Shown here in pieces: positions 24,601 to 60,495 of a stretch of 64,000 nucleotides of DNA. A program made the position numbers and the translations under genes. The notes under the pieces are model-generated. The model was given only the letters and a program-made list of their open reading frames with translations, did no database searches and was not told where the DNA came from. The DNA is from Cryptosporangium aurantiacum (GTDB lineage Bacteria > Actinomycetota > Actinomycetes > Mycobacteriales > Cryptosporangiaceae). The stretch lies in contig NZ_FRCS01000002.1 in assembly GCF_900143005.1 (NCBI RefSeq), positions 124,001 through 188,000 on the forward strand, read 5' to 3'. The stretch's first letter is position 1, and each line of letters opens with the position of its first letter.

Positions 24601-25464
24601 TCAGGCGAGTTCGTCCTTGGTCGGTAGCGACGCCATCGCGCCCTGGCGGGTGACGGTGACCGCGGCGACCCTGGTCGCCCAGCGCGCGGCCTCGACGATG
24701 TCCGCGCCGTCGAGCAGCGCGTCGGCGATCGCGGCGCAGAAGCTGTCGCCCGCCGCGGTCGCGTCCACGGCCTTGACCTGCTCGGCGGGCACCCGCGTCG
24801 ACCGCTCTGCCTCGACGACCAGGCACCCCTGGGCGCCGAGCGTGACGACGACCGGGCCACGGGTGCCCAGGTTCTGGGCGAGCTGCACCAGGTCACCCCG
24901 GTCGACGCCGCCGGCCAGGCCCAGCAGCTCACCGCGGTTGGGCACCAGCACGTCGACGTTGGCCAGCAGCGACGGGGCGACCGGCCGAGCGGGCGCCGGG
25001 TTCAGCACGACGATCCCGTTGGCCACCGACGCGGCTTCCTCGACCACCGCCGCGGGCACCTCCTGCTGGAGCAGGACGCAGCGGGCGGCGGCCACCAGCT
25101 CGCGGTCGACCTCCACGTGGTCGTTCGCGCCGGGGCTCACCACGATCGTGCTGTCGCCCTCGGTGTCGACGAAGACGAACGCCTGCCCGGTCGGGGCTTC
25201 GACCTGCCGGACGCCGCTGATGTCGATGTTCTCGCCGCGCAGGAGGCTCAGCAGGAACTCGCCGTCGGAGGCGCCGACCGCACCGACCATCGCGGTGCTG
25301 CGTCCCAGCCGCGCCGCGGCCACGGCCTGGTTACCGCCCTTGCCACCGCCGCTACGGCGGGCGTCGCCACCCAGCAGGGTCTGACCAGCTTCGGGCGCCT
25401 GCGGGACGTCGACCGTGACGTCAACGTTGAGGCTGCCCACCACGACGATTTCGAACGAGCTCAT
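24601..25464 (-). CDS. rbsK: Ribokinase (PfkB family)
   Basis: A 287-aa PfkB-type sugar kinase. N-terminal GSLNVDVTVDVP and GGKGGNQAVAAARLG (residues 40-54) match ribokinase, and the catalytic anion-hole motif is DATAAGDSFCAAIAD near 250. Ribokinase makes ribose-5-phosphate from ribose. It is the last gene of a seven-gene operon of ring-degradation-type enzymes, overlapping the cupin gene by 4 nt. That placement is unusual and suggests a sugar or nucleoside part in the substrate, or a repurposed kinase acting on another hydroxyl compound. Confidence 0.88.
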   Translation of the reverse strand: MSSFEIVVVGSLNVDVTVDVPQAPEAGQTLLGGDARRSGGGKGGNQAVAAARLGRSTAMVGAVGASDGEFLLSLLRGENIDISGVRQVEAPTGQAFVFVDTEGDSTIVVSPGANDHVEVDRELVAAARCVLLQQEVPAAVVEEAASVANGIVVLNPAPARPVAPSLLANVDVLVPNRGELLGLAGGVDRGDLVQLAQNLGTRGPVVVTLGAQGCLVVEAERSTRVPAEQVKAVDATAAGDSFCAAIADALLDGADIVEAARWATRVAAVTVTRQGAMASLPTKDELA

Positions 25465-25853
25465 GGACCCACATTCAACACAGCAGGGAGTTTGCCCGCG
25501 ATGGCGGCGTAGTCCTCACGCGGCGGCGCGAACACGTCGAGGTTGATGCAGGGCTCGGTGAGCGGCTGGATGTAGTGCTCGGCACCGGCCGGAACCAGCA
25601 GCATCGACCCCGCGGTCATCCGGTGCGGGGTGCCCTCGATGTAGTAGTCGGCCTCGCCCGCCAGGATCATCGCGAGCTGGTCGAAGTCGGCGTGTGAGTG
25701 CGGCCGCAGGTCCATGCCGACCGAGAGCGAGTGCCAGCAGAGCATGACCTCGTCGGTGCTGTAGACCCGGCGCCGCACGCCGGGCCGAATCACGTCCTCG
25801 GGGACGTCGTCCCAGTTCACGACCGTCCGGTAGAGCGCTTCGCTGAGCTTCAT
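25461..25853 (-). CDS. Small cupin-domain protein
   Basis: A 130-aa single-domain cupin. Motif 1 is seen in LRPHSHADFDQLAMILAGE (residues 50-69) with two His and a downstream Glu, and motif 2 around GSMLLVPAGAEHYIQPL (81-97). Such proteins bind a metal and act as isomerases, dioxygenases or sugar epimerases, or bind ligands. It overlaps its neighbours by 4 nt on both sides inside the catabolic operon. A role on a pathway intermediate is likely; the reaction is unknown. Confidence 0.8.
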   Translation of the reverse strand: MKLSEALYRTVVNWDDVPEDVIRPGVRRRVYSTDEVMLCWHSLSVGMDLRPHSHADFDQLAMILAGEADYYIEGTPHRMTAGSMLLVPAGAEHYIQPLTEPCINLDVFAPPREDYAAIAGKLPAVLNVGP

Positions 25854-26581
25854 CGGGTTTCTCCCAGGGTCTTCCGCAGCGCGGCGGCCAGGAACTGCAG
25901 GTCGGAGCCGATGACCACGTACCGGTCGCCGGCGGCCTCAGCGGTCGTGGCCGCCTCGGGGGTGGCACACCAGGAGCCGGTGAGCGGGCCCGCCGCCCGG
26001 ACCTCGCGGACGCGTTCTTCGAACGCTGCCGTGTCGCCGAGGCCGATGCTCACGGCGAGGTCGGTCACGCCCAGAAAAACCACGTCCAGGCCGCGGACGA
26101 CGTCCGGCAGCGGGTCGTCGGTGGTCGCCGTCTCGATCTGGCCGACGAGCAGCGGCGGTTCTTCGCGCTCGGTGGCCAGATAGTCGGCGAGCGGGACGCC
26201 GCTGTAGCCGGCCCCCGGGTGGGCGAGGGAGATGCTGCGGGTGCCGTCCGGGGCGTAGCGGGTGGCGGTTGTCAGGGCTCGCGTTTGTGCGGCGGAGCGG
26301 AGCGTCGAGAGCTGGATGCCCGCCGCCCCCGCTTCCAGGAGCCGGTTGATCAGCCCGGAATCCACGGTGGGTATCCGCACCAGCGCGGGCAGGCCGATCG
26401 CGGTCGCCCGGCTCACCGCACGGCGGGCCTGCTCCTCGGAGAGCTGCGAGTGCTCCAGGTCGACCACCACGAAGTCGGCGCCCGCCGCCTTCGCGAGGTC
26501 GATCGGCTCGTCGCCCGCGAGCTTCACGAACGTCCCCCGGACGCCCGTGGCCAGCGCGGCCCGCAGCTCCGCTCGGGTCAC
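25850..26581 (-). CDS. HpcH/HpaI family aldolase
   Basis: A 243-aa class II aldolase of the HpcH/HpaI group. The family pattern is present: FVVVDLEHSQLS near residue 37, GQIETATTDD near 150 with the metal-binding Glu, and VFLGVTDLAVSIGL near 170 with the metal-binding Asp. Members cleave 4-hydroxy-2-oxo acids to pyruvate plus an aldehyde, the final step of meta-cleavage pathways. It is shorter than typical HpaI (about 250-265 aa). It sits between the FAD reductase and cupin genes with 4-nt overlaps. Confidence 0.88.
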   Translation of the reverse strand: MTRAELRAALATGVRGTFVKLAGDEPIDLAKAAGADFVVVDLEHSQLSEEQARRAVSRATAIGLPALVRIPTVDSGLINRLLEAGAAGIQLSTLRSAAQTRALTTATRYAPDGTRSISLAHPGAGYSGVPLADYLATEREEPPLLVGQIETATTDDPLPDVVRGLDVVFLGVTDLAVSIGLGDTAAFEERVREVRAAGPLTGSWCATPEAATTAEAAGDRYVVIGSDLQFLAAALRKTLGETR

Positions 26582-27573
26582 AGCGCGTCCGAGCTGTGGC
26601 CGGGGGTGGTCTTCCAGCGTGAGTTGACCAGCGGCGCGATGTGGTTGATCGCGGTCGCGGCCTCGCCGAAGCCCACCGAGATCAGCGCGACCTTGCCCTC
26701 GTACATCGCGATGTCACCGGCCGCGAACACCCGCGGCAGGTTCGTCCGCTGCGTGCGGTCGACCAGGATCCGGCGGCGCTTGAGGTCCATGCCCCAGTCT
26801 GCCATCGGCCCCAGGTCGGTGAGGAAGCCGATCGCGGCGACGATTGTCTTCACGTCCCGGGAGATGGTCTCCTTGGACTCCACGTGCTCCAGCGTGACGG
26901 TTTCCACCGCGTCCGCGCCGTCCACCGCCACCACCTCGTACGGGGTGATCAGCTCGACCGAGGACTCCTGGAGCTTCGAGACGCTCTTCTCGTGCGCCCG
27001 GAACGCGTCCCGGCGGTGCACCAGCGCGACGCTGTTCGCCACCGGTTCCAGTGCCAGCGCCCAGTCGACCGCCGAGTCACCACCGCCCACCACGATCACG
27101 TCGTGTCCGGCCAGGTCCGCCAGCCGCGGCACGAAGTACCGCAGGCCACGACCCGCGAAGTCACCACCAGCGGGCAACTCCTTGGGCTCGAACGTGCCCA
27201 TGCCACCGGCGATCAGGATCGCTCTCGCGTGCACGGTGACGCCCGGGTCGCCGGGTGTACTCGCCACGGCGGTCACCGTGACCCCGTCGTCGTGCACCTC
27301 GATCGTCGTCGCCCGCTGCTCCATCAGGAACGTCGGCTTCGACTGCTGGGCCTGCTCGAACAGCGCGTCGACGAGGTCCTGGCCGCGCACGGCCGGGAAC
27401 CCGGCGACGTCGTAGATGTTCTTCTCCGGGTACAGCGCCGCGAGCTGGCCGCCGACCTCGGGCAGCGAGTCCAGCACCGCGACCGACATCCCGCGGAACC
27501 CGGCGTAGTACGCGCCGTAGAGCCCGACCGGACCGGCGCCGATGATCAGGACGTCGACGTCTACTTGGTCCAC
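26578..27573 (-). CDS. FAD-dependent ferredoxin-NAD(P) reductase (TrxR-like)
   Basis: A 331-aa protein from the GTG at 27573, which has GAGGTGG upstream; the longer open frame runs over the ferredoxin gene. It shows FAD fold GAGPVGLYGAYYAG near residue 13, NAD(P) fold GGGDSAVDWAL near 160, and a second FAD motif FAAGDIAMYEGK near 283. There is no CxxC redox pair, so it is the ferredoxin reductase type rather than a thioredoxin reductase. Its gene overlaps the 7Fe ferredoxin gene by 13 nt, indicating an electron-transfer pair for an oxygenase, plausibly the Rieske enzyme encoded nearby. Confidence 0.88.
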   Translation of the reverse strand: MDQVDVDVLIIGAGPVGLYGAYYAGFRGMSVAVLDSLPEVGGQLAALYPEKNIYDVAGFPAVRGQDLVDALFEQAQQSKPTFLMEQRATTIEVHDDGVTVTAVASTPGDPGVTVHARAILIAGGMGTFEPKELPAGGDFAGRGLRYFVPRLADLAGHDVIVVGGGDSAVDWALALEPVANSVALVHRRDAFRAHEKSVSKLQESSVELITPYEVVAVDGADAVETVTLEHVESKETISRDVKTIVAAIGFLTDLGPMADWGMDLKRRRILVDRTQRTNLPRVFAAGDIAMYEGKVALISVGFGEAATAINHIAPLVNSRWKTTPGHSSDAL

Positions 27574-27878
27574 GACGCCACCTCTTCGTGGTCGGCCGGG
27601 AGTGGCGGCACCTTGCGGGCGCCCCCCGGCGAACCGACCCCGAGCGTGAGGAACACGGTCTCGTTGATCGAGGCGAACTGCTCCTTGTCCCCGGGCAGGT
27701 CCTCTTCGTGGTAGATCGAGACGACCGGGCACGCGGGCTCGCAGCGTCCGCAGTCGACGCACTCCTCCGGGTTGATGTACATCATCCGCGGACCGGGGTA
27801 GATGCAGTCGACCGGGCACTCCTCGATGCAGGAGCGGTCCTGGACGTCGATGCAGGCATCGGTGACGACGTAGGCCAT
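27561..27878 (-). CDS. fdxA: 7Fe ferredoxin (FdxA type)
   Basis: A 105-aa ferredoxin. Cys9, Cys17 and Cys50 fit a [3Fe-4S] cluster; Cys21, Cys40, Cys43 and Cys46 fit a [4Fe-4S] cluster, with an extra Cys25, as in actinobacterial FdxA. The segment CIEECPVDCIYPG is diagnostic. It is a soluble one-electron carrier. It lies third in the catabolic operon, just before its reductase. A 7Fe ferredoxin feeding a Rieske oxygenase or a P450 would be less common than a 2Fe-2S carrier. Confidence 0.93.
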   Translation of the reverse strand: MAYVVTDACIDVQDRSCIEECPVDCIYPGPRMMYINPEECVDCGRCEPACPVVSIYHEEDLPGDKEQFASINETVFLTLGVGSPGGARKVPPLPADHEEVASWTK

Positions 27879-27895: not shown

Positions 27896-29068
27896 TCAGG
27901 CCGAAGGGGCGTTGCCGCGCCACTCGGTCAGTTCCTGGGAGACGCCGTTCACGAACACCGCGGTGGGCTCGAGCCGGGGGGCCTCGATCGTGTTGCCTGC
28001 GGCGTCCGGGAGAACCGCGGAGCCGACCTCCTTCAGCACGGTGACGTGCGCCGGTCCGCCGACCGTCAGCGAGCCGTAACCCTCGGCGTCCAGTCCGAGC
28101 AGCTGAGCCGGCGCGGTCGTGACGCGCGGCAGGATCTCCGACATCGGGACGCCCAGCGCGAGGAACTTCGACATCGACGTCACCAGGTCGAACACCGGGC
28201 CGCGCCAGTTGCGGCCGGACGTGTCGGAGCTGAGCACGTCCGGCAGGAAGCCCTCGGCGATCGCGGGCTTCGCGACCTTGAACGAGAGGTTCGACTTGCC
28301 GTGCGCCGAGTCGTAGAGCACACCCCGCTCGCGCGCCTTGTAGACCTCGCGCAGCACGGCCCCGTTCTCGTCGAGGATGCCGTTCTCCTTGCCGGTGTAG
28401 CAGTGGGCGATGATGTCGCCCGGACGCATCCGGTCGAGGATCTCCGGCAGCGTCAGCGCGGTCTCACCGATGTGGACCATCACCGGGAGACCGGCCTGCT
28501 CGCCGAGGCCGATCGCTTTTTCGAGGAGGGGCACAATTTTGTCGCCCAGCACGTCCTCGGACAGCCGGATCTTGAACCCGCGGACGACGTCCGGGTTCTG
28601 CGCGGCGGTCTCCAGCGCGTCCTCGACGTTGAACGTGTCGGGGTTGAGCAGCTCGCCGTAGCGGAAGTCGATCAGGCCGAGCACCGACACGTTGAGGAAG
28701 TTGACGATCCGCATCACGGTCGGCTCGACGACGAGCGTCCGGAACGCGGGGAACGTGCTCGCACCAGCGGTACCGGCGTCGGCGGCGGCCACGACGCCCC
28801 GGCGGAGGTGGGCCTCGTCCTGGGGCGCGCCGACCTTGGAGACCTTGTGGAAGATGTGTGTGTGGCCCTCGACCAGGCCGGGGAGCACGGACGCGCCGCG
28901 CACGTCGACGATCTCCGCGGTCGCGGCGGCCGCGCTGTCGGCCAGGCCGGCGCCGATCGCGGCGACCTTGCCGTCGGCGATCGCGAGGTCGGCGACCTCG
29001 TTCCGCCCGGACGCCGAGTCGAGCACCGTGCCACCGCGCAAGACGGTGTCGTAACGAGCTTCGGACAT
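27896..29068 (-). CDS. Amidohydrolase family enzyme (deacetylase/dihydroorotase-like)
   Basis: A 390-aa metallo-hydrolase from the ATG at 29068, preceded by GGAGG. Metal ligands visible: His69 and His71 in EGHTHIF, a candidate bridging Lys in VRGFKIRLS, His in VMVHIGE, His in IAHCYTG, and Asp in SSDTSG. It resembles the cytosolic amidohydrolase/deacetylase group (EF_0837/AHA_3915-like) more than true dihydroorotase. It would hydrolyse an amide, lactone or ester-like bond. Second gene of the seven-gene operon, 50 nt after the FAH-family gene. Confidence 0.88.
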   Translation of the reverse strand: MSEARYDTVLRGGTVLDSASGRNEVADLAIADGKVAAIGAGLADSAAAATAEIVDVRGASVLPGLVEGHTHIFHKVSKVGAPQDEAHLRRGVVAAADAGTAGASTFPAFRTLVVEPTVMRIVNFLNVSVLGLIDFRYGELLNPDTFNVEDALETAAQNPDVVRGFKIRLSEDVLGDKIVPLLEKAIGLGEQAGLPVMVHIGETALTLPEILDRMRPGDIIAHCYTGKENGILDENGAVLREVYKARERGVLYDSAHGKSNLSFKVAKPAIAEGFLPDVLSSDTSGRNWRGPVFDLVTSMSKFLALGVPMSEILPRVTTAPAQLLGLDAEGYGSLTVGGPAHVTVLKEVGSAVLPDAAGNTIEAPRLEPTAVFVNGVSQELTEWRGNAPSA

Positions 29069-29118: not shown

Positions 29119-29937
29119 TCAGGCGACGGTGTTCACGAGCGGCACGAGCGGGCCGACCGCGATCCGGATTTCCTGGCCGGGGCGCAGGTAGTCGTTCCGG
29201 TCCTGCCCGGTGCCGGGTGGCGTACCGGTGAGGACGACGTCCCCGGGCTCCAGCCGCACGTACCGGGACAGCCGGGACAGCAGCTCGGGGACGTCGAAGA
29301 TCAGATCGGCGGTCGAGCTGCGCTGGCGCTCCTCGCCGTCCACCCAGGAAGCGACCGGGATCGCGTCCCGATCGGCGAGGTCGGAGGGCGGCAGCATCGT
29401 GGGGCCCAGCGGCGCGCAGCCGGGAAAGCCCTTGGCCAGCGTCGGTGTGCCGGTGGCCTTCATGACGTCCCGGGCCGTGGAGTCGTTCGCGGCGATGACG
29501 CCGCCGACCGCGTCCCAGACGTCCTCCGGCCGGGCGTCGTGCAGCGCGCGGGCGAGCACGATGCCGACCTCGGCCTCGTAGTCGAACTGCGTGGTGAGGT
29601 CGGCCGGGATCGGTAACGCGGCTCGGTGCGCGGCCAGCGCGCTCGACGGCTTGAGGAACAGGATCGGCTCGGTCGGGACCGGTCGGCCGGTCAGCGCCGC
29701 CTTGCCGTGGTAGTTCAGCCCGACGCCCCAGACCGCGGTGTCCAGACCCAGCGGCGGCACGACGACCTCGTCCAGGTCGGCCTTGGCGAGGCGACGCGTG
29801 ACCGGCGCGGTCTCGACGTCGGCCAGCGTCTGCCCGGCCTTGAACAGCCACCGCAGGTTCGGGAGCGGTAGGTCGACGACGGCCAGCTCGTCGCCCTCGA
29901 CCCGGGCGATGCCGTAGCGGGTGACGAGCGTTTCCAT
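29119..29937 (-). CDS. Fumarylacetoacetate hydrolase (FAH) family protein
   Basis: A 272-aa protein. The catalytic FAH core (about 65-265) includes VGLNYHGKA, the metal-binding pattern FDYEAEVGIVLA with two Glu, a KGFPGCAPLGP loop, and GDVVLTGTPPGTG near the end. FAH-family enzymes cleave acylpyruvates or hydrate/decarboxylate meta-cleavage products. First gene of the operon running to 24601. Start ATG at 29937; the upstream region holds ATCTC/GAGAC sites shared with other promoters of the cluster. Confidence 0.9.
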   Translation of the reverse strand: METLVTRYGIARVEGDELAVVDLPLPNLRWLFKAGQTLADVETAPVTRRLAKADLDEVVVPPLGLDTAVWGVGLNYHGKAALTGRPVPTEPILFLKPSSALAAHRAALPIPADLTTQFDYEAEVGIVLARALHDARPEDVWDAVGGVIAANDSTARDVMKATGTPTLAKGFPGCAPLGPTMLPPSDLADRDAIPVASWVDGEERQRSSTADLIFDVPELLSRLSRYVRLEPGDVVLTGTPPGTGQDRNDYLRPGQEIRIAVGPLVPLVNTVA

Positions 29938-30076: not shown

Positions 30077-30125
30077 TTGACGCGACAGCGGGCTCTAACG
30101 CCGCCTTACAGACCGGTTACGCGTG
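30077..30125. repeat. 49-nt imperfect hairpin element, copy 1
   Basis: This stretch aligns with 49135-49183 at 36 of 49 positions by eye. Shared blocks are TTGACGCGA, CGGGC, CTAA, CTTA and CCGGTT. It folds on itself with ACGCG/CGCGT ends and several mismatches. It spans the stop codon of the M20-like gene and the first bases beyond. It is perhaps a dispersed terminator-like repeat. Confidence 0.5.
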
Positions 30126-31358
30126 AATCCGCGGGGTGCGGGACAAGAGCCGCTCGTAGACGTGACACCAGCGGGCCAACTCCGGCACGGAGAACGTGTC
30201 GATGCGGGGGTCGCCGGTGTTTGGTAGTGGGCGGGGGCCTAGGCGGGCGGTGGGCACGCCGGCGGCGCGGAAGACCACGCCGTCGGTGGAGCCCGTCCAG
30301 CCACGGATCGGCTCTACCGCCGGGATGCGAGCCCCGGAGCCGGCCTCTGCGTCGGAGCCCGCCCCGGCGCCGGGGCCGAACTCGGCGTCGTAGGCGGCGG
30401 TGGCGGCCTGGATGACCGGGGCGTCGGGGGGCGTGCCGGGGCCGTTGCCCAGCAGCTCCTCGTCGACGCGCACGCCGTCGAACGCGCTCAGGTGCGCGGC
30501 CAGCGACGCCGCGGCGGCTCCTGGTTCGACCGGACCGGGCAGCACGAGGTAGCAGTAGAGCTCCAGCGCGGCCGGGGCGAGATCGGGCTTCTCCGGCGAC
30601 CCGGCACGCAGCGCACCGAGCCCGAACGACGCCCCGTCCTGCCTCGACGGGTCGACGCGAAGCGCCTGCTGTGTAACGTCCGCCGCGTAGTTCGAACCCC
30701 AGGATTCGACGGCGGCGAGCAGCGCACCAGCCTGCGACAGCAGGCCGCCCGGAGGGCGCAGCAGGCCCGGCAGCATCAGCGGACCCCAGCCCGCTTCGAG
30801 CCGGATCCGCAGGTAGAGCGCGGCCGGTTCCTGCCGCAGCACGCCCGGCGGCCCGCCCTTGGCGACGACGGCCGCGCCCGGGCGCGGGAACGCCGCGAGG
30901 TACTCGGTGACGCCGGTGGCCGGGTGCGCCCCCCAGGACGTTCGGTGCGTTCCGCGGGCGGCGAGCAGGAGGTGGGTGTTCGGCACGGCGGCTCGCACGA
31001 ACCCGACGATCGCCGCCGCCGCGGGCGCCTTCGCGACGCCGAGCCCGAAGCCGCTCACGGTGTCGCCGTCGTGCCGGTACGCCGGCACCGGATCGGCCCG
31101 GCCCGTAACCGCGGAATCCACGACCGGATCCCCGGTCAGCGATGTGTCCAAATGGGAGTACAGCACTATGTCGGCTGGGGCACGCTCGGCCGCCGAGCCG
31201 CCGTGAACGGACGCCAGCACGCTCGCGGAGTTTTCGCCGAGCGGCCGCACCTGCCAGTCGATGAACGGCCACCGCTCGGCGGCCCACGCGGCGAACTTCT
31301 CCGCGCGCGGACGCTCACCGCCGTGCGGGCTCGCGGTGCCGGCCAGTTCGGCGAGCAC
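30117..31358 (-). CDS. M20-like peptidase homologue with altered metal site
   Basis: A 413-aa protein. M20 features are present: YSHLDTSLTGDP near residue 66 (H-x-D metal pair) and GSTDGVVFRAAGVPTARLGP near 355. Where the family has the catalytic DEE or EE pair, this protein has ARGTHRTSW. The C-terminal His-containing segment is replaced by PRIDTFSVPEL. Enzymatic activity is therefore doubtful, or uses a different site. It is the last gene of the Rieske operon, starting at a GTG 15 nt after the upstream stop. Confidence 0.75.
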   Translation of the reverse strand: MLAELAGTASPHGGERPRAEKFAAWAAERWPFIDWQVRPLGENSASVLASVHGGSAAERAPADIVLYSHLDTSLTGDPVVDSAVTGRADPVPAYRHDGDTVSGFGLGVAKAPAAAAIVGFVRAAVPNTHLLLAARGTHRTSWGAHPATGVTEYLAAFPRPGAAVVAKGGPPGVLRQEPAALYLRIRLEAGWGPLMLPGLLRPPGGLLSQAGALLAAVESWGSNYAADVTQQALRVDPSRQDGASFGLGALRAGSPEKPDLAPAALELYCYLVLPGPVEPGAAAASLAAHLSAFDGVRVDEELLGNGPGTPPDAPVIQAATAAYDAEFGPGAGAGSDAEAGSGARIPAVEPIRGWTGSTDGVVFRAAGVPTARLGPRPLPNTGDPRIDTFSVPELARWCHVYERLLSRTPRIHA

Positions 31359-31372: not shown

Positions 31373-32575
31373 TCAGAACCGCTCCCAGTCGTCCGCCGCC
31401 GCGCGCCAGACGTCGATGTTCCGCGGGTCGCCGCCCATCCGGCGGGCCTTGTGCGTCTCGTTCTGCTCGGGCGTGAAGACCCGGTGGCCGTCACACAGCT
31501 CGATGCGCGGCCCGAACCGGGCGTCGTACAGGTAGAACGCGATCGAGTGCGACGCGGAGTGGTTCACGATGTCGGACGCGATCTCGGTGCCCTTGTAGAG
31601 CGCCCTGGCCCGGCCGCGCATGACGTGGTCGAGGCTCTTCATCTTGAAGCAGAGGTGCGCCAGGTAGAACTTGTCGTCGCGGCGCAGCGCGAGCGAGTGG
31701 TGGTACCGGTTCTCCGACCGCAGGAACGACGACGAGCCGCGGCCCGGCGTCATCACGTAGTCCGACGCCTGGAAGCCGAGCACGTTCAGGTAGAAGTGCT
31801 GGCTCTCCTCGTAGTGGTCGGTGGAGAGGAACGGGTGCACGAGCTCGACCGGCCGGTACTCGAGCAGCGGCGGCTCGGCGTACTCGTAGAACTCCCAGCC
31901 GAACTCGAGCGTCAGCCCGTTCGGGTCCTTCGTCGCGAAGCCGCGGGTGCAGACCGACGCGGTGCGCTCGTGCAGCGGGAAGATCTCCGCGCCCTCGGCG
32001 CGCAGCCGCTTCTCCAGGTCGTCGAGGACCTCCTCGGACTCGACGCTCAGGCCGATCGCCAGCGTGTCGAATTCGGTGAGGCTCGGGTCGCTGACCAGCT
32101 CGATCGAGTACTGCTCGATGCCGGCGCGCAGCTGCGCGTACTCGGGAGTGCGCGCCTCCACCTGGAGGCCTACGTGGTACGTGTAGAACTCGATCGCCTC
32201 GTCGAGAGCCGGGGTGGCCAGCCGGGCGAACTGGATGCCGTACGGGCCGCGCGGGCGGTTGGTCACTGGCTTCTCCGATCGGAACGGCGACGGCGCGGAG
32301 AGCGTGACGATCGTCTGCTGGGCGATGACCGGCCGCCACTTCTCCCGCACGAACGCCTCGTGCTCAGCACTGTTGAGATAGGACTTCAGATCGTTCTCGT
32401 CGTCGAACTCGATCGTGAAAACGTGCGACATCCGGGTATCGCGTTCGGAGATGTTCGGCCCCAGCACGAAGCTGCGCATCTGCGGATACTTGCTCGGAAA
32501 GGTCTCCAACTCGGCGAGGATCGCGTCGACCGGCGCGCCTGCCTTGAAGGCGAATGCAACCACGTGCCTGATCAC
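31373..32575 (-). CDS. Dabb domain fused to extradiol (VOC) ring-cleavage dioxygenase
   Basis: A 400-aa protein in two parts. Residues 1-93 form a Dabb (stress-responsive A/B barrel) domain, starting MIRHVVAFAFK. Residues 112-365 form a two-module type I extradiol dioxygenase. The first module (112-230) lacks metal ligands. The second has the His-His-Glu triad: His247 in LVHPFL, His292/293 in YHHSLAL, and Glu359 in RIEL. It should cleave a catechol-like ring next to a hydroxyl using Fe(II) and O2. It lies 9 nt downstream of the Rieske beta gene, consistent with ring hydroxylation then meta cleavage. Confidence 0.85.
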   Translation of the reverse strand: MIRHVVAFAFKAGAPVDAILAELETFPSKYPQMRSFVLGPNISERDTRMSHVFTIEFDDENDLKSYLNSAEHEAFVREKWRPVIAQQTIVTLSAPSPFRSEKPVTNRPRGPYGIQFARLATPALDEAIEFYTYHVGLQVEARTPEYAQLRAGIEQYSIELVSDPSLTEFDTLAIGLSVESEEVLDDLEKRLRAEGAEIFPLHERTASVCTRGFATKDPNGLTLEFGWEFYEYAEPPLLEYRPVELVHPFLSTDHYEESQHFYLNVLGFQASDYVMTPGRGSSSFLRSENRYHHSLALRRDDKFYLAHLCFKMKSLDHVMRGRARALYKGTEIASDIVNHSASHSIAFYLYDARFGPRIELCDGHRVFTPEQNETHKARRMGGDPRNIDVWRAAADDWERF

Positions 32576-32584
32576 GGCGCCTCC

Positions 32585-33079
32585 CTACAGGATGAAGCTG
32601 AGTCGGGCGCCCGGCTCGAGCAGCTCGTGCACGAGGTACGCCCGGCGGTGGAGGAACTTCAGTTCGCCCTCGTCGTTCAGCACGACGTCGTGGTGGTAGC
32701 GCCCCACGTACGTGTGGTGGGTCTGGTCGCGGAACCGGTTGATGAGGAAGTTCGCCTTCAGCTCGATGCCCTCGGCGCCGCGGATCACCCGGACGTTGGT
32801 CACCATCCGGTGGGTGCGCGAGTGCGGGTTCTCCGCGTGCGCCTTCCGGCTCTTCAGCCGCTTGACGCGCGCCTGGAGCAGGTCCCAGTCGTCGAGGACG
32901 AAGAAGCCACCGCCGGTGCGGTCCCAGCCCTGGTAGTCGGTGGTCGGCACCTCGAACGTGCCGCCCTCCTCGAACAGCGCGAGCCAGGCGTCGAGGTGCC
33001 ACTCGTCGAGGAGCATCGCCTCCTGGTAGAGGAAGTCCTCGGCGTCCTCGCGGGTGACGGTGACGGTCGGGGCGCTCAT
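32585..33079 (-). CDS. Aromatic-ring-hydroxylating dioxygenase beta subunit
   Basis: A 164-aa SnoaL/NTF2-fold small subunit. Family patterns: EDFLYQEAMLLDEWHLDAWLAL-type N-terminus near 12-35, and an internal SRTHRMVTNVRVI near 108-120. The beta subunit stabilises the alpha3beta3 hexamer and has no cofactor. Its start overlaps the alpha-subunit stop by 4 nt. The pair is encoded directly upstream of the extradiol dioxygenase. Confidence 0.92.
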   Translation of the reverse strand: MSAPTVTVTREDAEDFLYQEAMLLDEWHLDAWLALFEEGGTFEVPTTDYQGWDRTGGGFFVLDDWDLLQARVKRLKSRKAHAENPHSRTHRMVTNVRVIRGAEGIELKANFLINRFRDQTHHTYVGRYHHDVVLNDEGELKFLHRRAYLVHELLEPGARLSFIL

Positions 33080-34425
33080 GCGGTTGGCCCTTCATAGCTC
33101 GTCGCGGCGACGCCGGGCACCGCGCCCAGCGACTGGTCCCAGTGACGCCAGAAGCTGCGCATGGCGCCTTCGTCGATCGAGCGGCCCTTCTCGCCCTTTG
33201 CTTCCCGCTCCATTCCGCGGGACATGTCGCTCCAGTCGTTGAAGCCGCGGGTGTCGCCCTTGCTGGCCTCGATGCCGCGCTGCACGGCCTCGTACGCCTC
33301 GATGTCGTCCGGCGTGGCCAGGCCACCCGGGCCGACGAAGCTCGTCATCGTCTTGAGCCGCATCGCGCGGGCCTCGTCGTCCTCGTCGGTCGGCACGTAC
33401 TGCCAGGCCCGGACGTCGGTGCGGCCGGGCGCGACCGGCTCGAGCTGGCGGATCGTCAGCGCTTCGAGGTCGAAGAACAGCAGGTTCGGCCAGACGAACA
33501 GGATCCGGCTGGCGTCGCCGATCGTGTCGGCGCGCTCCTGGCCGAGCCGCTGCGCCATGGCTTCGCGGTTGGCCTTCGTCCGCTCCTTCTCCTCCTCGCC
33601 GAAGCGCGGCTCCCAGAGCATGCCCAGCCGGCCGTTGTGCCCGGTGAGCACCAGCATCGAGTGCCCGTTGCCGAGGTCGTAGGCGTACTGGTCGTCGTCG
33701 GTGACCGCGAAGCCGGTCTCCCGCAGGTACCCGACGAACGTGTTGTGGGTCGGCGAGAAGTGGTAGCCGTCCATCGCGTTCTCGACCGCGAGCTTCCAGT
33801 TGCCCTTGACGCCGTAGCGCTGGATGCCGGGCAGCGTGGACATGCCGGCCGCTGACTGCTCGGCGGCCATCGAGAGGATGTCGGCCGCGTCGCCCAGGTG
33901 CTCCAGGAGCGGCGGCACGTCCGGGTCGTACGAGATGAAGACAAAACCCTCGTGGATGTCGAGCTTCGCGACCGGGCGCAGGTCCATCGAACCCTTGAAG
34001 CGCTCGAGTTCGGCGTACGCGTCGTCGCCGGGGAGCGCGGAGAGCTTGCCGGACGAGTTGAACGTCCAGGCGTGGTAGAAGCACTGGAAGTTGCGGGCGT
34101 TGCCCTGCTCGTCCCGGCAGACCACGGTGCCGCGGTGCGGGCAGGAGTTGAGGAACGCCCGCACCACGCCGTCGCCGCCGCGGACGAAGATCAGCGGCTT
34201 CCCGCCGATCGTCCGCACCTTGTAGTCGTTCTTCTTCGGGATCTCGGTCTCGTGTCCGAGGTAGAGCCAGGAGTGGCCCCAGATCCGCTCGCGCTCGGCC
34301 TGGAAGACCTCCGCCGAGCGGTACGCCTCGCGGTTGACCCGGAAGGTCAGGGCGTTCCAGTCCTGCGCGATCAGGCCACCGTGGCCGGTATCGACCAGAC
34401 CTTCAGCCATTGTCTGTGTCATCAT
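33076..34425 (-). CDS. Rieske aromatic-ring-hydroxylating dioxygenase alpha subunit
   Basis: A 449-aa protein. The Rieske [2Fe-2S] ligands are Cys95/His97 (CPHRG) and Cys115/His118 (CFYHAW). The catalytic mononuclear iron site is at Asp219/His222/His227 in NAMDGYHFSPTHNTF, with the distal ligand in the C-terminal domain. It hydroxylates an aromatic or carboxylated ring using electrons from a ferredoxin and reductase. Neither is encoded in this operon; the 7Fe ferredoxin and FAD reductase at 26.6-27.9 kb are candidates. It is first in its operon, and a 19-bp dyad lies 13 nt upstream. Confidence 0.95.
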   Translation of the reverse strand: MMTQTMAEGLVDTGHGGLIAQDWNALTFRVNREAYRSAEVFQAERERIWGHSWLYLGHETEIPKKNDYKVRTIGGKPLIFVRGGDGVVRAFLNSCPHRGTVVCRDEQGNARNFQCFYHAWTFNSSGKLSALPGDDAYAELERFKGSMDLRPVAKLDIHEGFVFISYDPDVPPLLEHLGDAADILSMAAEQSAAGMSTLPGIQRYGVKGNWKLAVENAMDGYHFSPTHNTFVGYLRETGFAVTDDDQYAYDLGNGHSMLVLTGHNGRLGMLWEPRFGEEEKERTKANREAMAQRLGQERADTIGDASRILFVWPNLLFFDLEALTIRQLEPVAPGRTDVRAWQYVPTDEDDEARAMRLKTMTSFVGPGGLATPDDIEAYEAVQRGIEASKGDTRGFNDWSDMSRGMEREAKGEKGRSIDEGAMRSFWRHWDQSLGAVPGVAATSYEGPTA

Positions 34426-34437
34426 CGGTCCTCGTTG

Positions 34438-34456
34438 TGAGAGATGCCATCTCGCA
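34438..34456. promoter_or_regulatory. Dyad operator between Rieske operon and IclR gene
   Basis: TGAGAGAT-GCC-ATCTCGCA is an inverted repeat with 7 of 8 arm positions matching. It sits 13 nt upstream of the Rieske alpha start and 125 nt upstream of the divergent IclR start. It is the best candidate site for the IclR-family regulator. A related sequence is at 60204-60222. Confidence 0.5.
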
Positions 34457-34580
34457 TTCCGACATGGTGTATTGCAGAGTGCTTACTGTCAACGGACCCA
34501 GCGGCGGCGATCCGGTTGATAGCATCACGCCTGCTGAGATAAGCCCCCGTGGTCGCATGCGGCCACAAAAAGGACGATTC

Positions 34581-35387
34581 ATGCTTGAGCCTGTGCCCGA
34601 AATCGCCCCGGTTTCTCCCGCCCCCGACGATGACGACCTCCCGCGCGCCGAGCGCGGTACGCCGGCGATCCAGGCGGTCGAGCGGGCCGCGACGATCCTC
34701 GGCGCGTTCAGCGTCGGACGTCCCCGGCTGAGCCTCAACGAGCTCACCGCTCGGCTGGGCACCAGCAAGGCCACCGCGCACCGGTACACCAAGGCCCTGC
34801 GCTCGGTGAACCTGCTCCGCTACGACGAGCGGGAGGCCCTGTACTCGCTCGGCCCCCAGGTGCTGACGCTGTCCGCCGCCGCGCGCGCCGGGCTGCCGAT
34901 CATCACGATCGCCGGCCCGTACATGGAAGAGCTGGTCCGCGAGGCGGGTGAAACCGTCGTGCTCTCGGTCTGGGACGGCGACACCGCGGTCGTCGTCCGG
35001 GTCGACGACAACACCGACCGCACGGTGCGGATCAGCGTCCGTACCGGCGCACGGCTGTCGATGTCCCGCTCGGCGCAGGGCCGCGTGTTCTGCGCGTTCC
35101 TGGCCGAGGACGAGGTCCCCGGGCTGGGGGCCCTGCTGCGCCGTAACCCGGAGCTCCGGCTGGAGCTGGAGACGATCCGGGAGAGCGGCATCTCGGTGAA
35201 CACTCCCACCGACAACGGCGTCCGCACGATCGCCGCGCCGGTGTTCCAGGACGCGCAGATCGTCGCCACGATGGCGATCGTCGGCACCACCGCCGCGGTG
35301 GCCGGTGACACCGACTCGCCGGCCGCGCAGTCCCTGCTCCGGGTGACGCGCTCGCTCACCCAGGAGCTGGGCGCCGGCTCGCTGTAG
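34581..35387 (+). CDS. IclR family transcriptional regulator
   Basis: A 268-aa protein from the ATG at 34581, which has AAAAAGGA upstream; a longer in-frame extension to 34410 would overlap the operator and Rieske start. The winged HTH lies at about 35-95 (LSLNELTARLGTSKATAHRYTKAL), and the effector-binding IclR domain at about 110-260. IclR proteins govern aromatic catabolic operons as repressors or activators. It is divergent from the Rieske operon and probably controls it and its own gene. The effector is unknown. Confidence 0.92.
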   Translation: MLEPVPEIAPVSPAPDDDDLPRAERGTPAIQAVERAATILGAFSVGRPRLSLNELTARLGTSKATAHRYTKALRSVNLLRYDEREALYSLGPQVLTLSAAARAGLPIITIAGPYMEELVREAGETVVLSVWDGDTAVVVRVDDNTDRTVRISVRTGARLSMSRSAQGRVFCAFLAEDEVPGLGALLRRNPELRLELETIRESGISVNTPTDNGVRTIAAPVFQDAQIVATMAIVGTTAAVAGDTDSPAAQSLLRVTRSLTQELGAGSL

Positions 35388-35455: not shown

Positions 35456-37639
35456 TCACAGGTCCAGGCTCAGCCGGTCGGTCGCACACCGGCTGACGCA
35501 GATCATCATCGTGCTGCCGCCGGCGCGCTCGGCCTCGGACAGGATGCTGTCCCGGTGCTCGGCCGCGCCGGCCAGCACCCGGGTCTCGCACGAGCCGCAG
35601 TACCCCTCTTCGCAGTCGTACGGCACCCCGGGGACGACGTCCCGGATCGCTTCGAGCAGCGTGCGGTTCGCCGGGACGCGGAGCGTGTGTCCGGCGCGAA
35701 CCAGCGTCACCTCGAAAGCGCGCGCGTCGGCCGGGATCGGGGCCACCCGGTCGGCGCCACCGCCGGTGAACCGCTCGACGTGCAGCTCCAGGTCGCCGAC
35801 CGTGTTCTCCACCGCGGTCAGCAGCCCTTCGGGGCCGCAGCAGTAGACCTTGGTGCCTTCCGGTGCCGCAGCGAACGTCCCGGCCAGGTCCGGGTGGCCG
35901 AACTCGTCCTGCGGCACCAGCCGGACGCGGTCGCCGTACTGCTCGTGCAGCGCCGACGCGAACGCCATCGACGCCCGGGTACGGCCGCCGTAGAGCAGCG
36001 TCCAGTCCGCGCCACGGGCGTCCGCGGCCCGCACCATCGCGCTGATCGGCGTGATGCCGATGCCGCCGGCGACGAACAGATACCGCTCGGCGTCGACCAG
36101 CGGGAAGTGGTTCTTCGGCCCCCGGACGCGCAGCGTGGCGCCGGGCGTCAGCACCTCGTGCACCTCCGCCGAGCCACCGCGCCCGGCCGGTTCGCGGAGC
36201 ACCGCTACCTGGTAGGACTCCCGGTCGGCCGGGTCGCCGGTCAGCGAGTACTGCCGGACCTTGCCGGACGGAAGGATCAGGTCCAGGTGCGCGCCGGGCT
36301 CCCACGACGGGAGTTCACCGTCGCCGACCAGGCGCAGCGAGACCACGCCGTCCGCGATCGGTGTCACCGCGTCGAGCGTCAGGACCTGCACGTCCAGGCC
36401 GGTCGTGGTCTTCGGGGCCGGGGTGCCGCGCTTGCGCCCCGGCGTGAACGTCACCGGGATCGCGTCCCAGCCGGACTGGTTGCCCCAGGACTCGGTGGGC
36501 GTGGCGGGCTCGGTGAGCCGGTAGTCCGGGAACCGTTCGAGGACCTGGGTGATCATCTCGCGGAACATCGCCCTGGCCAGGTGCGCGCCCGCGCAGCGGT
36601 GGGACCCGATGCCGAAGCTCAGGTGACCGCGCGGGTCACGGTCGAGGATGACGCGGTCCGGGTCCGGAAACACCTCGGGGTCGTGGTTCGCCGCGATCCA
36701 CGGGATCAGCACCCGCTCGCCGTGCGCGACCGGGCAGCCGCCGATCGTCGTGTCGGTCATGACCGTGCGCGCCATCGACTGGGACGGGGCGAACTTGCGG
36801 AGGAACTCCTCGGTCGCGACGTCGAGCAGCGCCGGCTCGCGGATCAAGCGCGCCCGGTCCTCGGGGTGGTTCGCGAGGTGCACGAGCGTCGAGCCGGTGA
36901 GCGACGTCGTGGTGTCGACGCCGCCGGCCACCAGCAAGAAGATCACCGACGCCAGCTCGTCGTCGGAGAACGCCTTACCGTGCGCGACCAGCCAGGAGAT
37001 CGCGTCGTCCTTCGGGTCTTCCCGGCGGTCGTGCATGAGCTGGAAGATCCGGTCGCCCATGAAGCCGAGCGCCGCGCCGCCGCGCTGTTCCCGCTCGCTG
37101 CCCGGGATCGCCGCGAACAGGTCGTGGATCGGACCGGCCAGCCGCTTCCAGTCCTCACGCGGGAACCCGAGCCAGTCGAGCGTCACCGCGGTCGGGACCG
37201 GGTTCGTCAGCTGGTGGACCAGGTCCGCGCTGCCGTCCTCGATGAACGCGTCGATGACCTCGGTGACGTGTTTCGCGATCATCGGGACCAGCGCCTCGAC
37301 CGCCGACCGGCTGAGCAGCGGGTTGATCAGCTCGCGGTACGGCGTCGACTGCGGCGGGTCGAGCTCGATCGGGTACTGCGGGAGGGCCTTGCTCTCCGGG
37401 ATGACGAACGCGATGCCGTCGATGTCGTTACGAGCCGACGAGAACGTCGCGTCGTCGCGGGCGATCCGGGTGATGTCGTCGTACCGGGTGGTCACCCAGT
37501 GGCCGCCGTAGGACTCGGTCCAGGCGACCGGAGACTTGTCCCGGAGTTCTGCGTACTGACGCACCGGGTCGATCGTGAACTCCGGGGCGTGGTGGTCGAA
37601 TTCGACCACAGGACGTGCTGCTTCCACTGCCATCTCCAC
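35456..37639 (-). CDS. Self-sufficient cytochrome P450-reductase-ferredoxin fusion
   Basis: A 727-aa fusion. P450 domain (1-400): I-helix AGGVDTT (238-244), ExxR in TEEFLRKF, and heme-Cys349 in FGIGSHRCAG. Reductase domain (about 412-630): RQYSLTG (462-468, flavin) and GGIGITP (525-531, NAD(P)H). C-terminal plant-type [2Fe-2S] domain (about 640-727) with Cys676, Cys681, Cys684 and Cys714. This is the phthalate-dioxygenase-reductase-like fusion known from P450RhF/CYP116B. It needs no separate redox partner. The substrate is unknown; it is a single gene inside the catabolic cluster. Confidence 0.94.
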   Translation of the reverse strand: MEMAVEAARPVVEFDHHAPEFTIDPVRQYAELRDKSPVAWTESYGGHWVTTRYDDITRIARDDATFSSARNDIDGIAFVIPESKALPQYPIELDPPQSTPYRELINPLLSRSAVEALVPMIAKHVTEVIDAFIEDGSADLVHQLTNPVPTAVTLDWLGFPREDWKRLAGPIHDLFAAIPGSEREQRGGAALGFMGDRIFQLMHDRREDPKDDAISWLVAHGKAFSDDELASVIFLLVAGGVDTTTSLTGSTLVHLANHPEDRARLIREPALLDVATEEFLRKFAPSQSMARTVMTDTTIGGCPVAHGERVLIPWIAANHDPEVFPDPDRVILDRDPRGHLSFGIGSHRCAGAHLARAMFREMITQVLERFPDYRLTEPATPTESWGNQSGWDAIPVTFTPGRKRGTPAPKTTTGLDVQVLTLDAVTPIADGVVSLRLVGDGELPSWEPGAHLDLILPSGKVRQYSLTGDPADRESYQVAVLREPAGRGGSAEVHEVLTPGATLRVRGPKNHFPLVDAERYLFVAGGIGITPISAMVRAADARGADWTLLYGGRTRASMAFASALHEQYGDRVRLVPQDEFGHPDLAGTFAAAPEGTKVYCCGPEGLLTAVENTVGDLELHVERFTGGGADRVAPIPADARAFEVTLVRAGHTLRVPANRTLLEAIRDVVPGVPYDCEEGYCGSCETRVLAGAAEHRDSILSEAERAGGSTMMICVSRCATDRLSLDL

Positions 37640-45838: not shown

Positions 45839-46924
45839 TCAGAGACCCCAGTCCATCCGGGGCACGACCGCGGTCTTGACCGAGAACTGGCCGACGTCCT
45901 CGACGCCCGAGGTGTCCTCCCGGTCCTCCTCACGGCTCTTCACGACGTGCTTGCCGAACTTGTCGACGAGCGGACGGTCGCTGTCCCGCTTCAGCCAGAG
46001 GCGCAGCAGGTGCCGCTTACGGCCGTACTGCGGCCAGTCGATGAACGCGGTCCGCGAGTGCAGAGCGGCGTAGTTCGAGACCCACTGGATGTCACCGGGC
46101 TGGAAGTCCATGTCCAGCGCCATGCCCGGCTCGTAGGTGATCTCGTCGAACAGCTTGACGACCTCGATCTGCTGCGGCGTCAGCCGCGGCGTCTCCGGGT
46201 AGTCCTGCGCGGTGAAGATGTACGTCGAGCCGGCGTACATGCTGAACACGCCGTCCTTGAGGCTCACGATCGGCGACGTGTAGGTCTTCGCCGGGGCGTC
46301 GTGGTCCTGCTTGTACCAGTCGAAGTAGAACGGCTCGTGCAGCAGCGGAGCCAGGTCCGGACGACGCTGGAGGATCTCGTTGTAGATCTGGGCACCCGAG
46401 ACGAGGCTGGACGCGCCACCCTCCTTGGCCGGGCGGAGGCAGAACAGCGCCACCGCGTCCGAGCTGTCCGAGTGGAAGACCAGCTTGTCGGCGACCCGGG
46501 ACGACAGTGCGCTCGGGTCGTCCATCGTCTTCGTCGAGGTGGCGATGACGTGGTCGATCAGGTCGGCCATCTCGTTCTGCTTCATCGGGACGCCGAGGTG
46601 GAGGCCGGTGAGGTAGAAGATCGCACCGGACAGCGCGTCCGAGTAGAGCTCGGTCTTGAGCCCACGGATCAGCACGAAGCCGCGACCGCGGTCCATGTCG
46701 TTGGCCCACTGCTCGATGGCCTGCGCGCAGACCGGGAGCGGGTAGTCGTCGCGGGTCACCCGGCGCAGATCGGGGTCGTCCTCGACGAACTTGCGGCCGA
46801 CCGCCTCGAGCTCGGCGATCTCCGCCTCGTTCAGCTGGTAGATCCAGGACTTCTCGTTCTGGAGCTGGTCGCCCCGCCAGGCCGCCGGCCCGGTGACCGG
46901 GGACAGGTCAGTGGTGACGGTCAT
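45839..46924 (-). CDS. TauD/TfdA-type Fe(II)/2-oxoglutarate dioxygenase
   Basis: A 361-aa protein. Iron ligands: His and Asp of FHSDSSD near residue 150, and a distal His in YAALHSRTAF near 290. An Arg further on in RHLLRLWLKR would bind 2-oxoglutarate. Family members hydroxylate or cleave C-H bonds next to sulfonate, ether or amine groups. Last of three minus-strand genes following VOC and SnoaL-like genes, with a 66-nt gap before it. The substrate is unknown. Confidence 0.88.
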   Translation of the reverse strand: MTVTTDLSPVTGPAAWRGDQLQNEKSWIYQLNEAEIAELEAVGRKFVEDDPDLRRVTRDDYPLPVCAQAIEQWANDMDRGRGFVLIRGLKTELYSDALSGAIFYLTGLHLGVPMKQNEMADLIDHVIATSTKTMDDPSALSSRVADKLVFHSDSSDAVALFCLRPAKEGGASSLVSGAQIYNEILQRRPDLAPLLHEPFYFDWYKQDHDAPAKTYTSPIVSLKDGVFSMYAGSTYIFTAQDYPETPRLTPQQIEVVKLFDEITYEPGMALDMDFQPGDIQWVSNYAALHSRTAFIDWPQYGRKRHLLRLWLKRDSDRPLVDKFGKHVVKSREEDREDTSGVEDVGQFSVKTAVVPRMDWGL

Positions 46925-46990
46925 CGTGGTTTTCTCCTATGGGATGAACTGCGGCCCAGCCGGATGGCACCGGCGACACGGGCGAGAGGC

Positions 46991-47392
46991 TCACTTCGCG
47001 AGCTGTTGTTGGACGGTCGTCCCGTCCCAGTAGTCGCGGCGGTGCGCGATCAGGCCTTCGGAGACACGGAACCAGAACATTCCCCGCACCGCGACCGGCT
47101 TGAGCACACCGGCCGGGTCGGCCAACCGGAACGACATCCGGTAGCCGACCGCGGCACGGTCGCCGTCGACCAGGAGGTCGTCGACGTCGTAGCGCAGGCC
47201 CTGGAACTCGGCCAGGAAGCCGCCGAGCCGGTCCCGATAAGCGGCACGCCCGCGCAGGCTGCGGCCCGCGGCGGACGTGTGCTCGTTGTGGAAGTCGTCG
47301 GTGACGCAGGCCGCGATCGCGTCCGCGTCACCGGCGTTCAGCGCCGCGAGGTATCGCTCGACGACCGCCCGCGTGGTGGTCAGCTGCCCCAC
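46991..47392 (-). CDS. SnoaL/NTF2-like protein
   Basis: A 133-aa protein from the GTG at 47392, which overlaps the end of the VOC gene by 13 nt. Pattern: VERYLAALNAGDADAIAACVTDDF near residue 10-33, typical of SnoaL-like ester cyclases and ketosteroid-isomerase-fold proteins. The fold has a deep pocket and is used by isomerases, cyclases and dehydratases. It is probably an enzyme in the same pathway as the VOC protein and the TauD-type oxygenase. The reaction is unknown. Confidence 0.75.
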   Translation of the reverse strand: MGQLTTTRAVVERYLAALNAGDADAIAACVTDDFHNEHTSAAGRSLRGRAAYRDRLGGFLAEFQGLRYDVDDLLVDGDRAAVGYRMSFRLADPAGVLKPVAVRGMFWFRVSEGLIAHRRDYWDGTTVQQQLAK

Positions 47393-47832
47393 TTGGTGCG
47401 GACGGACTCGAAGACCTTCTGGTCGTGCGAGATCTCGATGACGTTGCCGTCCGGGTCCTTCAGCGCGCAGATGTAGCCGACCGGGTCGGGCATCTGGCGG
47501 GGCTCCCAGTGCAGGACGCCGAGCTCGCGCGCCTTCGCGGCGATCGCGTCGACGTCCTCGCGGTTCGGCACCTCGATACCGATGTGCGCGAACGGCGTCA
47601 GCAGCCCGTGCTGGCCGCCGTGGTCCTTGTTGAAGTCGACCAGCACGAGGACGAACGGCGTCTCGACCTGCTTGTCGTTGGACAGCCAGGCGCTCTGACC
47701 GTCGGCGTCCTTGAACCGCTCGAGCACCACCAGCGGGGTCAACGAGGTGTAGAACTCGATCGACTTGTCGAGGTCGCCGGACGGCAGCGCGACATGCGTC
47801 CATCGCGCCTGCGTCAGCTTCGTGTCCGTCAC
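47380..47832 (-). CDS. VOC (glyoxalase/dioxygenase) superfamily protein
   Basis: A 150-aa single-module-pair VOC protein. Candidate metal ligands: His13 in WTHVALPSGDL, His in FAHIGIEVP near 83, and Glu in GNVIEISHD near 134. That would suit a metal-dependent lyase, isomerase or dioxygenase. The first gene of the VOC-SnoaL-TauD group. An inverted repeat with 10-bp arms lies in its upstream region. Confidence 0.82.
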   Translation of the reverse strand: MTDTKLTQARWTHVALPSGDLDKSIEFYTSLTPLVVLERFKDADGQSAWLSNDKQVETPFVLVLVDFNKDHGGQHGLLTPFAHIGIEVPNREDVDAIAAKARELGVLHWEPRQMPDPVGYICALKDPDGNVIEISHDQKVFESVRTKWGS

Positions 47833-47848
47833 GGGGTTCTCCTCTTCG

Positions 47849-47914
47849 ATTCAGCCCTGGCCCTGCGCTCTGGCCTTGGTGACCACCGTACTGAGGCCCC
47901 CGGAAGGGCTGAAT
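47849..47914. promoter_or_regulatory. Widely spaced 10-bp inverted repeat upstream of VOC gene
   Basis: ATTCAGCCCT at 47849-47858 pairs perfectly with AGGGCTGAAT at 47905-47914. The repeat starts 16 nt before the VOC start codon, in the 218-nt gap to the divergent aldo/keto reductase. It could be a 5'-leader structure or paired regulator sites. Confidence 0.4.
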
Positions 47915-48050
47915 GTGCCGGGGGGACAAAGATGTCGGTCACACTCTGCTCCCGCACCACATCAGGCTTCCGCGGACGCTGTGCGAGGGTTCGGTCAGTA
48001 CGGTTCGCGCGTGGTTCCCAGCGCCCAATGGGGCCGGGAAAGGACATTCG

Positions 48051-49079: not shown

Positions 49080-49099
49080 CACGCGGCCGCCGTTTGACG

Positions 49100-49129
49100 C
49101 CTCCGCCGCTGACCCCTCCGCCGCTGACC
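49100..49129 (+). repeat. Two 15-bp tandem repeats after the reductase gene
   Basis: CCTCCGCCGCTGACC occurs twice in direct succession (49100-49114 and 49115-49129). A near copy, with one extra CCG, forms the last codons and stop of the aldo/keto reductase gene just upstream. As at rpmG, the tail of a gene including its stop seems to have been copied downstream. Confidence 0.7.
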
Positions 49130-49134
49130 GCGGT

Positions 49135-49183
49135 TTGACGCGAAACCGGGCGCTAAGCGTTTCTTAGAGCCCGGTTTCGCGTC
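49135..49183. terminator. Strong bidirectional hairpin; 49-nt element copy 2
   Basis: GACGCGAAACCGGGC (49137-49151) pairs perfectly with GCCCGGTTTCGCGTC (49169-49183), and CTAAG/CTTAG extends the stem inside around a CGTTT loop. It separates the convergent reductase and FGGY kinase genes and overlaps the kinase stop codon. The same element in degenerate form is at 30077-30125. Confidence 0.85.
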
Positions 49184-52099: not shown

Positions 52100-52165
52100 T
52101 AGAACAGCGCCAATCCGAGCCGCGGCGCGTTACCGCAGCGATGTGTTTCCCCCGTGGTTCTCATC

Positions 52166-55874: not shown

Positions 55875-55875
55875 G

Positions 55876-56949: not shown

Positions 56950-57023
56950 TGAAGTCCTTCCGAGGAGCGTGGAGCCTTGCTGGTCGGTTCTCAAGGGGGT
57001 TGGGACCGGCAGCGCTGACGGAT

Positions 57024-60162: not shown

Positions 60163-60203
60163 CGCGTCCCTCCCTGTTGTGTGTTCGGCTCGCCATCTCA
60201 CAT

Positions 60204-60485: not shown

Positions 60486-60495
60486 TCACCGTGGG

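Follow-up and report, generated by a model that had tools for sequence, protein, structure and literature searches.

The window, i.e. the whole stretch of 64,000 nucleotides of Cryptosporangium aurantiacum DNA that was analysed, includes at 31373–32575 on the minus strand a single open frame of 400 codons with GTG as the first codon, as seen from the ORF list and the translation. The encoded protein combines an N-terminal Dabb domain with an extradiol dioxygenase (EDO), and its gene lies in a catabolic cluster with genes for a ring-hydroxylating dioxygenase (RHO). The features of the locus, with the basis of each assignment in brackets, are given below.

25461–25853, minus strand: cupin (PF07883).
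25850–26581, minus strand: HpcH/HpaI aldolase (PF03328).
26578–27690, minus strand: ferredoxin reductase-like flavoprotein, start not fixed (PF07992).
27561–27878, minus strand: 4Fe-4S ferredoxin (PF00037).
27896–29050, minus strand: amidohydrolase (conserved neighbour).
29119–29937, minus strand: FAH-family protein, HpaG-like (PF01557, E 3e-56).
30117–31358, minus strand: M20-like metallohydrolase, directly downstream of the fusion gene (weak NCBIfam matches; neighbourhood).
31373–32575, minus strand: Dabb–EDO fusion gene, 400 aa, GTG start (ORF and translation; Pfam and NCBIfam).
31376–32266, minus strand: extradiol dioxygenase, residues 104–400 (alignment to 1mpy; fold matches).
32249–32296, minus strand: linker, about residues 94–109 (pLDDT under 50 at residues 100–103; varies among relatives).
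32264–32266, minus strand: internal in-frame GTG, codon 104, predicted start of a 297-aa EDO (Shine-Dalgarno tests; EDO starts of separate genes match).
32273–32276, minus strand: internal Shine-Dalgarno (SD)-like GGAG, 6 nt before the internal start (sequence; anti-SD energy -8.0 kcal/mol).
32297–32575, minus strand: Dabb domain, residues 1–93 (PF07876, E 1e-16; model; alignments).
32580–32585, minus strand: GGGAGG ribosome-binding site of the first start (sequence of the upstream region; anti-SD energy -10.1 kcal/mol).
32585–33079, minus strand: RHO beta subunit (PF00866, E 4e-25).
33076–34425, minus strand: RHO alpha subunit (Rieske and Ring_hydroxyl_A).
34410–35387, plus strand: IclR-family regulator, divergent from the RHO genes (PF01614, PF09339).
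35456–37639, minus strand: P450 fused to a reductase/[2Fe-2S] module, a variable cluster member (domain matches; neighbourhood).

The fusion gene starts 9 bp from the end of the RHO beta gene. The same fused frame is present in three other genomes of the genus, where the full-length proteins are 84–95% identical to that of the window, and at about 35 other loci. An assembly or frameshift artefact was ruled out, as many independent genomes carry the identical frame, and chance is rejected on the same ground. Hence, the Dabb–EDO fusion is a genuine architecture.

PF07876 matched residues 1–88 (61.6 bits, E 1e-16, gathering cut-off 25), and in the AlphaFold2 model this region adopts, with confidence, the β-α-β-β-α-β ferredoxin-like fold of the family. 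The assignment of residues 1–93 to Dabb in the sequence-only reading is thus supported both by Pfam and by the structure prediction that it had named as a check, in which a Dabb-like domain is followed by a two-module EDO. The domain was also modelled by itself from one sequence (pLDDT 81). Structural comparison of this model gave Z values of about 9.5–11 to olivetolic acid cyclase (OAC), SP1, hydroxynitrile lyase and Dabb proteins of plants. OAC, SP1, PeHNL and HS1 share the Dabb fold with the window protein, but they are stand-alone plant enzymes or structural proteins, whereas the window Dabb is fused to an EDO (in some relatives, clustered with one), and OAC is only 10–14% identical to it. 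Profile alignment places His4, His51, Tyr66 and His72 at the positions of OAC His5, His57, Tyr72 and His78, respectively. Tyr66 and His72 would therefore form an OAC-type Tyr/His dyad, which in OAC is the acid/base pair Tyr72 and His78 (PMC7962319, PMC8156804).

His51, Tyr66 and His72 are invariant in an alignment of 20 Dabb domains from fused and separate genes. In SP1, which is a stable structural protein, the tyrosine is retained while Leu occupies the His72 position. The conservation of Tyr66, His72 and His51 would be better explained by a barrel with a catalytic role than by one that serves dimerisation alone, although the Tyr/His motif is common across the Dabb family and does not fix a reaction. 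The dN/dS ratio of the domain is 0.14–0.30 in 11 of 12 close pairs and 0.61 in the remaining one, which indicates that the domain is maintained by purifying selection. No second Dabb was found in the genome of the window, where the Dabb–EDO copy is the sole match. A search for the PF01361 tautomerase family gave no match in this genome and was positive in other genomes; a search with PF02962 (CHMI) also gave no match, but its positive control was silent as well. A tautomerase of another family could be present. To our knowledge, few bacterial Dabb proteins have assigned functions.

The EDO part extends over about residues 107–392, and the structural alignment spans residues 108–392. Pfam Glyoxalase matched residues 114–224, and the two-module EDO profile TIGR03211 of NCBIfam aligned over residues 116–373; the profile and the structural alignment agree on two tandem VOC modules, as had been claimed from the sequence. 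The score of 67 bits is below the TIGR03211 equivalog cut-off of 320, and the scores for the HpaD, BphC and HsaC equivalogs were likewise below the NCBIfam cut-offs. The full-length AlphaFold2 model, built with an alignment of 33 relatives, had a mean pLDDT of 90.6 and a pTM of 0.71. The best match in both structure and sequence was 3b59, a Mn(II)-bound glyoxalase/dioxygenase of Novosphingobium aromaticivorans (VIA Z 32.4, 24% identity), which has no Dabb domain and for which a function is not established in its record. It was followed by HsaC (31.6), BphC (30.5) and C23O (30.2).

Alignment to catechol 2,3-dioxygenase (1mpy) identified His247, His307 and Glu359 as the predicted iron ligands, corresponding to His153, His214 and Glu265, respectively, and His292, His339 and Tyr348 as second-sphere residues, corresponding to His199, His246 and Tyr255. 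The roles of these residues in 1mpy are well established for the EDO family. All six positions of 1mpy are present and are invariant in 29 aligned relatives. 1mpy, BphC (1han) and HsaC (2zyq) have the same two-module VOC fold but are only about 20–24% identical to the window protein, which differs from them in carrying an N-terminal Dabb domain. The predicted active site of the EDO is therefore intact, with a 2-His-1-Glu triad and the second-sphere His, His and Tyr. Of the original description of the fusion, both domains, an intact triad, and His247 and Glu359 as ligands stand; the second ligand had been placed at His292/293 and is His307 instead.

About 40 actinobacterial loci carry the Dabb–EDO fusion in a conserved catabolic cluster made up of the RHO, Dabb–EDO, the M20-like hydrolase, FAH and the HpcH aldolase. 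Full-length relatives occur in several other families of the order and elsewhere in the class, and fused loci, which make up most of the 34 named loci, include those of Streptomyces, Nocardioides, Pimelobacter, Blastococcus, Actinomadura, Pseudonocardia, Rhizohabitans and Nanopelagicales MAGs. The architecture is thus widespread in Actinomycetota and not unique to the window, and no prior description of a Dabb–EDO enzyme was found in the literature searched or in the PDB. One Streptomyces copy (L049, 12001–13209) lies, with its cluster, on a 1.5-Mb linear plasmid typed as mobilizable; hence the cluster may be able to travel. In Dactylosporangium roseum (L102, 8001–9300) the fused gene has an internal ATG and a frameshift inside the EDO, which is either a sequencing error or the mark of a pseudogene. 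A Dabb match was found in 110 of 396 sampled Actinomycetota genomes, mostly in short frames; five genomes (G038, G361, G325, G214 and G151) have matches in frames of about 330–470 aa, some of which could be other Dabb fusions.

The two parts are also found as separate genes. At three loci (L048, L060 and L061) the stop of the Dabb gene overlaps the start of the EDO gene, at two others (L053 and L054) an in-frame stop lies between them, and in Streptosporangium amethystogenes they are adjacent. A TnpB/OrfB-like transposase gene separates them in Micromonospora echinofusca (L099, 6580–7830). In Desertimonas flava the Dabb gene belongs to the same cluster but lies on the opposite strand, beside HpcH and some 4 kb from the EDO gene. 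Three stand-alone copies were checked, and each scored as Dabb. Retention of the separate gene in the cluster marks Dabb as a pathway partner and not a chance appendage, probably a regular partner in aromatic ring opening. Gene order thus gives independent backing to the earlier suggestion that barrel and dioxygenase are functionally coupled.

In a tree of Dabb, EDO, RHO alpha and RHO beta, two fused groups were recovered with separate-gene relatives between them, and parsimony required two changes between the fused and separate states. A single fused clade is not rejected for this four-part tree (p-AU 0.164), so the two changes may both be fusions, or one of them may be a fission. A genome of the same genus further includes a paralogous cluster (L062, G418:C13, 9574–16321) with RHO alpha and beta, TauD and a P450-reductase fusion, the EDO of which is 40% identical and has no Dabb. 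Hence, Dabb is not needed for ring cleavage in that paralogue or by such EDOs generally, and this cluster is a natural comparison for the contribution of Dabb.

The linker between the domains varies in length from 14 to 27 residues among relatives, with at least 10 changes, every one of them in frame, and its protein sequence is loosely constrained. An SD motif (GGAG, GAGG or AGGA) before an in-frame ATG or GTG was found in 29 of 35 fused linkers, compared with 4.9 expected from synonymous shuffling with the codon usage of each gene; three more are added when TTG is counted (32 of 35). The start stays 7–11 codons ahead of the PYG motif of the EDO. Where it is a valine codon it is GTG in 22 of 22 cases, whereas elsewhere GTC is commoner (548 GTC, 320 GTG). 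Rare codons (GGA, AGG, GCA, ACA, CGA and CCA) make up 49% of the six codons before the start; their share is 2.4% elsewhere and 6.9% over the remaining linker.

With a general actinobacterial anti-SD sequence, internal starts have a median anti-SD energy of -9.5 kcal/mol, first starts one of -6.9 and the 644 remaining in-frame NTG codons one of -1.1; in 30 of 32 genes no in-frame NTG codon scores better than the internal one. In the window gene the internal start ranks first of 15 in-frame NTG codons, and the energies of -10.1 and -8.0 make the first start the stronger of the two in this gene. Separate-gene relatives have an equally strong ribosome-binding site before the EDO (-8.1 to -11.6), which begins at the matching place. 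As the loci are related, these counts overstate independence; the distinct linker sequences represent about six lineages. Two Actinomadura loci and Rhizohabitans have no internal NTG, so that a second product is not universal. A second SD and NTG peak at residue 124, seen at 13 loci, lies in the conserved VPDM region and is read as a coding coincidence.

The putative internal start with its SD is therefore under selection at the nucleotide level, and the gene probably makes both Dabb–EDO (400 aa) and the EDO alone (297 aa). A large share of the dioxygenase may then carry no barrel. There are strong indications that the fused gene corresponds to two neighbouring genes joined in frame with no stop between them. 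In SctQ/SpaO/HrcQ an in-frame internal start likewise gives a second, shorter product (PMC8553256). The likeness lies in one frame, an internal ribosome-binding site and two expected products. However, the second product has been demonstrated by experiment in type III secretion and is predicted for Dabb–EDO, a catabolic enzyme whose internal start, unlike that of the SctQ type, would mark where two genes once met.

RHO alpha and beta genes were found at 33 of the 34 named loci, M20-like at 32, IclR at 29, FAH, HpcH aldolase and cupin at 24 each and the amidohydrolase at 23; several loci end early at contig or flank ends. The order RHO alpha, RHO beta, Dabb, EDO, M20-like is nearly fixed, and the M20-like homologue at one locus (L100) matches Pfam Peptidase_M20. 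The RHO alpha subunit is nearest to benzoate 1,2-dioxygenase, at 276 bits far under the TIGR03229 cut-off of 781; by sequence the RHO resembles benzoate/anthranilate dioxygenases, a likeness that does not fix the substrate. FAH and HpcH families belong to lower meta-cleavage pathways. Thus, ring cleavage followed by decarboxylation or hydration and aldol cleavage would be the natural reading of the cluster. No polyketide synthase was found among the annotated cluster genes.

The window also includes, at 45839–63857, genes for a TauD dioxygenase, an amidase, a PnrA-like ABC transporter, an amidohydrolase, a flavin reductase, a PucR regulator and FmdA/AmdA. Homologues of these genes adjoin Dabb–EDO clusters elsewhere; the substrate may be a nitrogen-containing aromatic. 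By eye, a hydantoinase-like and an isochorismatase-like gene were read after the cluster in Pimelobacter (L071, 10681–12808) and Nocardioides soli (L073, 10512–12636), a further hint that the substrate may be a cyclic amide or a ureide.

The interpretation put forward here, which we give an even chance of being correct, is that of an aromatic-catabolic fusion with two products (400 and 297 aa), in which Dabb performs acid/base chemistry beside ring cleavage. The RHO would act before Dabb–EDO, and the FAH and HpcH aldolase steps after it. Within the linker the EDO probably retains a start and a ribosome-binding site of its own, and the two forms could combine into EDO oligomers of mixed composition, with a barrel on some of the subunits. 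Ring opening of a catechol by the EDO would use Fe(II) and O2. Tyr66 and His72, with His51, may provide the acid/base chemistry by which an intermediate adjacent to the cleavage step, most likely the ring-opened product, tautomerises or undergoes a different enolate reaction. The OAC-like dyad, the single Dabb and the lack of a PF01361 match in the genome make such an enolate/tautomerase-type role attractive, and the ring-opened product is preferred over the RHO product as its substrate. FAH/HpaG-like enzymes could perform the isomerisation themselves. At somewhat less than an even chance, the gene may further be a fusion intermediate held by selection across the lineage, with fewer barrels than active sites in mixed oligomers and with Dabb catalysing a step so far unassigned.

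Other roles of the barrel can be weighed against this. Dabb could act before ring cleavage, helping to turn the RHO product into the catechol of the EDO, e.g. by elimination and rearomatisation. A separate Dabb gene often sits between the RHO beta and EDO genes, no short-chain cis-diol dehydrogenase was recognised among the annotated cluster genes (not every ORF is annotated in all loci), and OAC, a Dabb relative, catalyses a cyclisation leading to aromatisation (PMC8156804). However, gene order alone does not set the order of reactions, the zinc ADH or the aldo/keto reductase could oxidise a diol, and the Desertimonas Dabb gene stands apart, adjoining HpcH; an early role is considered distinctly unlikely. 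It is rather unlikely that the barrel is non-catalytic, pairing or positioning EDO subunits as a dimer or tethering the EDO to the M20-like enzyme or to the RHO. In favour of this, Dabb proteins usually dimerise, the fold is close to that of SP1 and other relatives known to be non-enzymatic, and tethering fits a flexible linker. Yet the putative Dabb active-site residues are invariant, stand-alone copies included, and the separate gene is kept in the cluster, though tethering would then need binding.

Two further alternatives concern the start in the linker. The SD and start could be unused relics of an old intergenic region, with all protein made as 400 aa. Separate-gene relatives exist as a possible source of a relic start, and Actinomadura and Rhizohabitans have none; a relic should decay, whereas several distinct linkers preserve the SD by means of rare codons and the start tops the ranking in nearly all genes despite the loosely constrained linker protein. 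A plain fusion is thus rather doubtful. Conversely, the fusion might be non-functional, the EDO being made mainly from the internal start and read-through from Dabb being a tolerated accident. The internal ribosome-binding site is on median stronger than the first, and separate-gene states work in relatives. This appears quite improbable, as the frame is kept at all fused loci through the changes in linker length, and the fused gene cannot yield a stand-alone Dabb product.

Type I EDO, Dabb and dual-start genes were already known; here the joining of Dabb to an EDO comes with a conserved internal start. The architecture ties Dabb physically and genomically to one EDO subfamily and gives a direct, assayable lead on the function of Dabb in bacteria. 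Across relatives, this locus ranges from separate overlapping genes through genes with an in-frame stop between them and a stop-less fusion with an apparently working internal start to a clean fusion, so that one can test whether fusions in general go through a stage with two products and are held there. Labelling such genes simple fusions can misstate the protein that is made.
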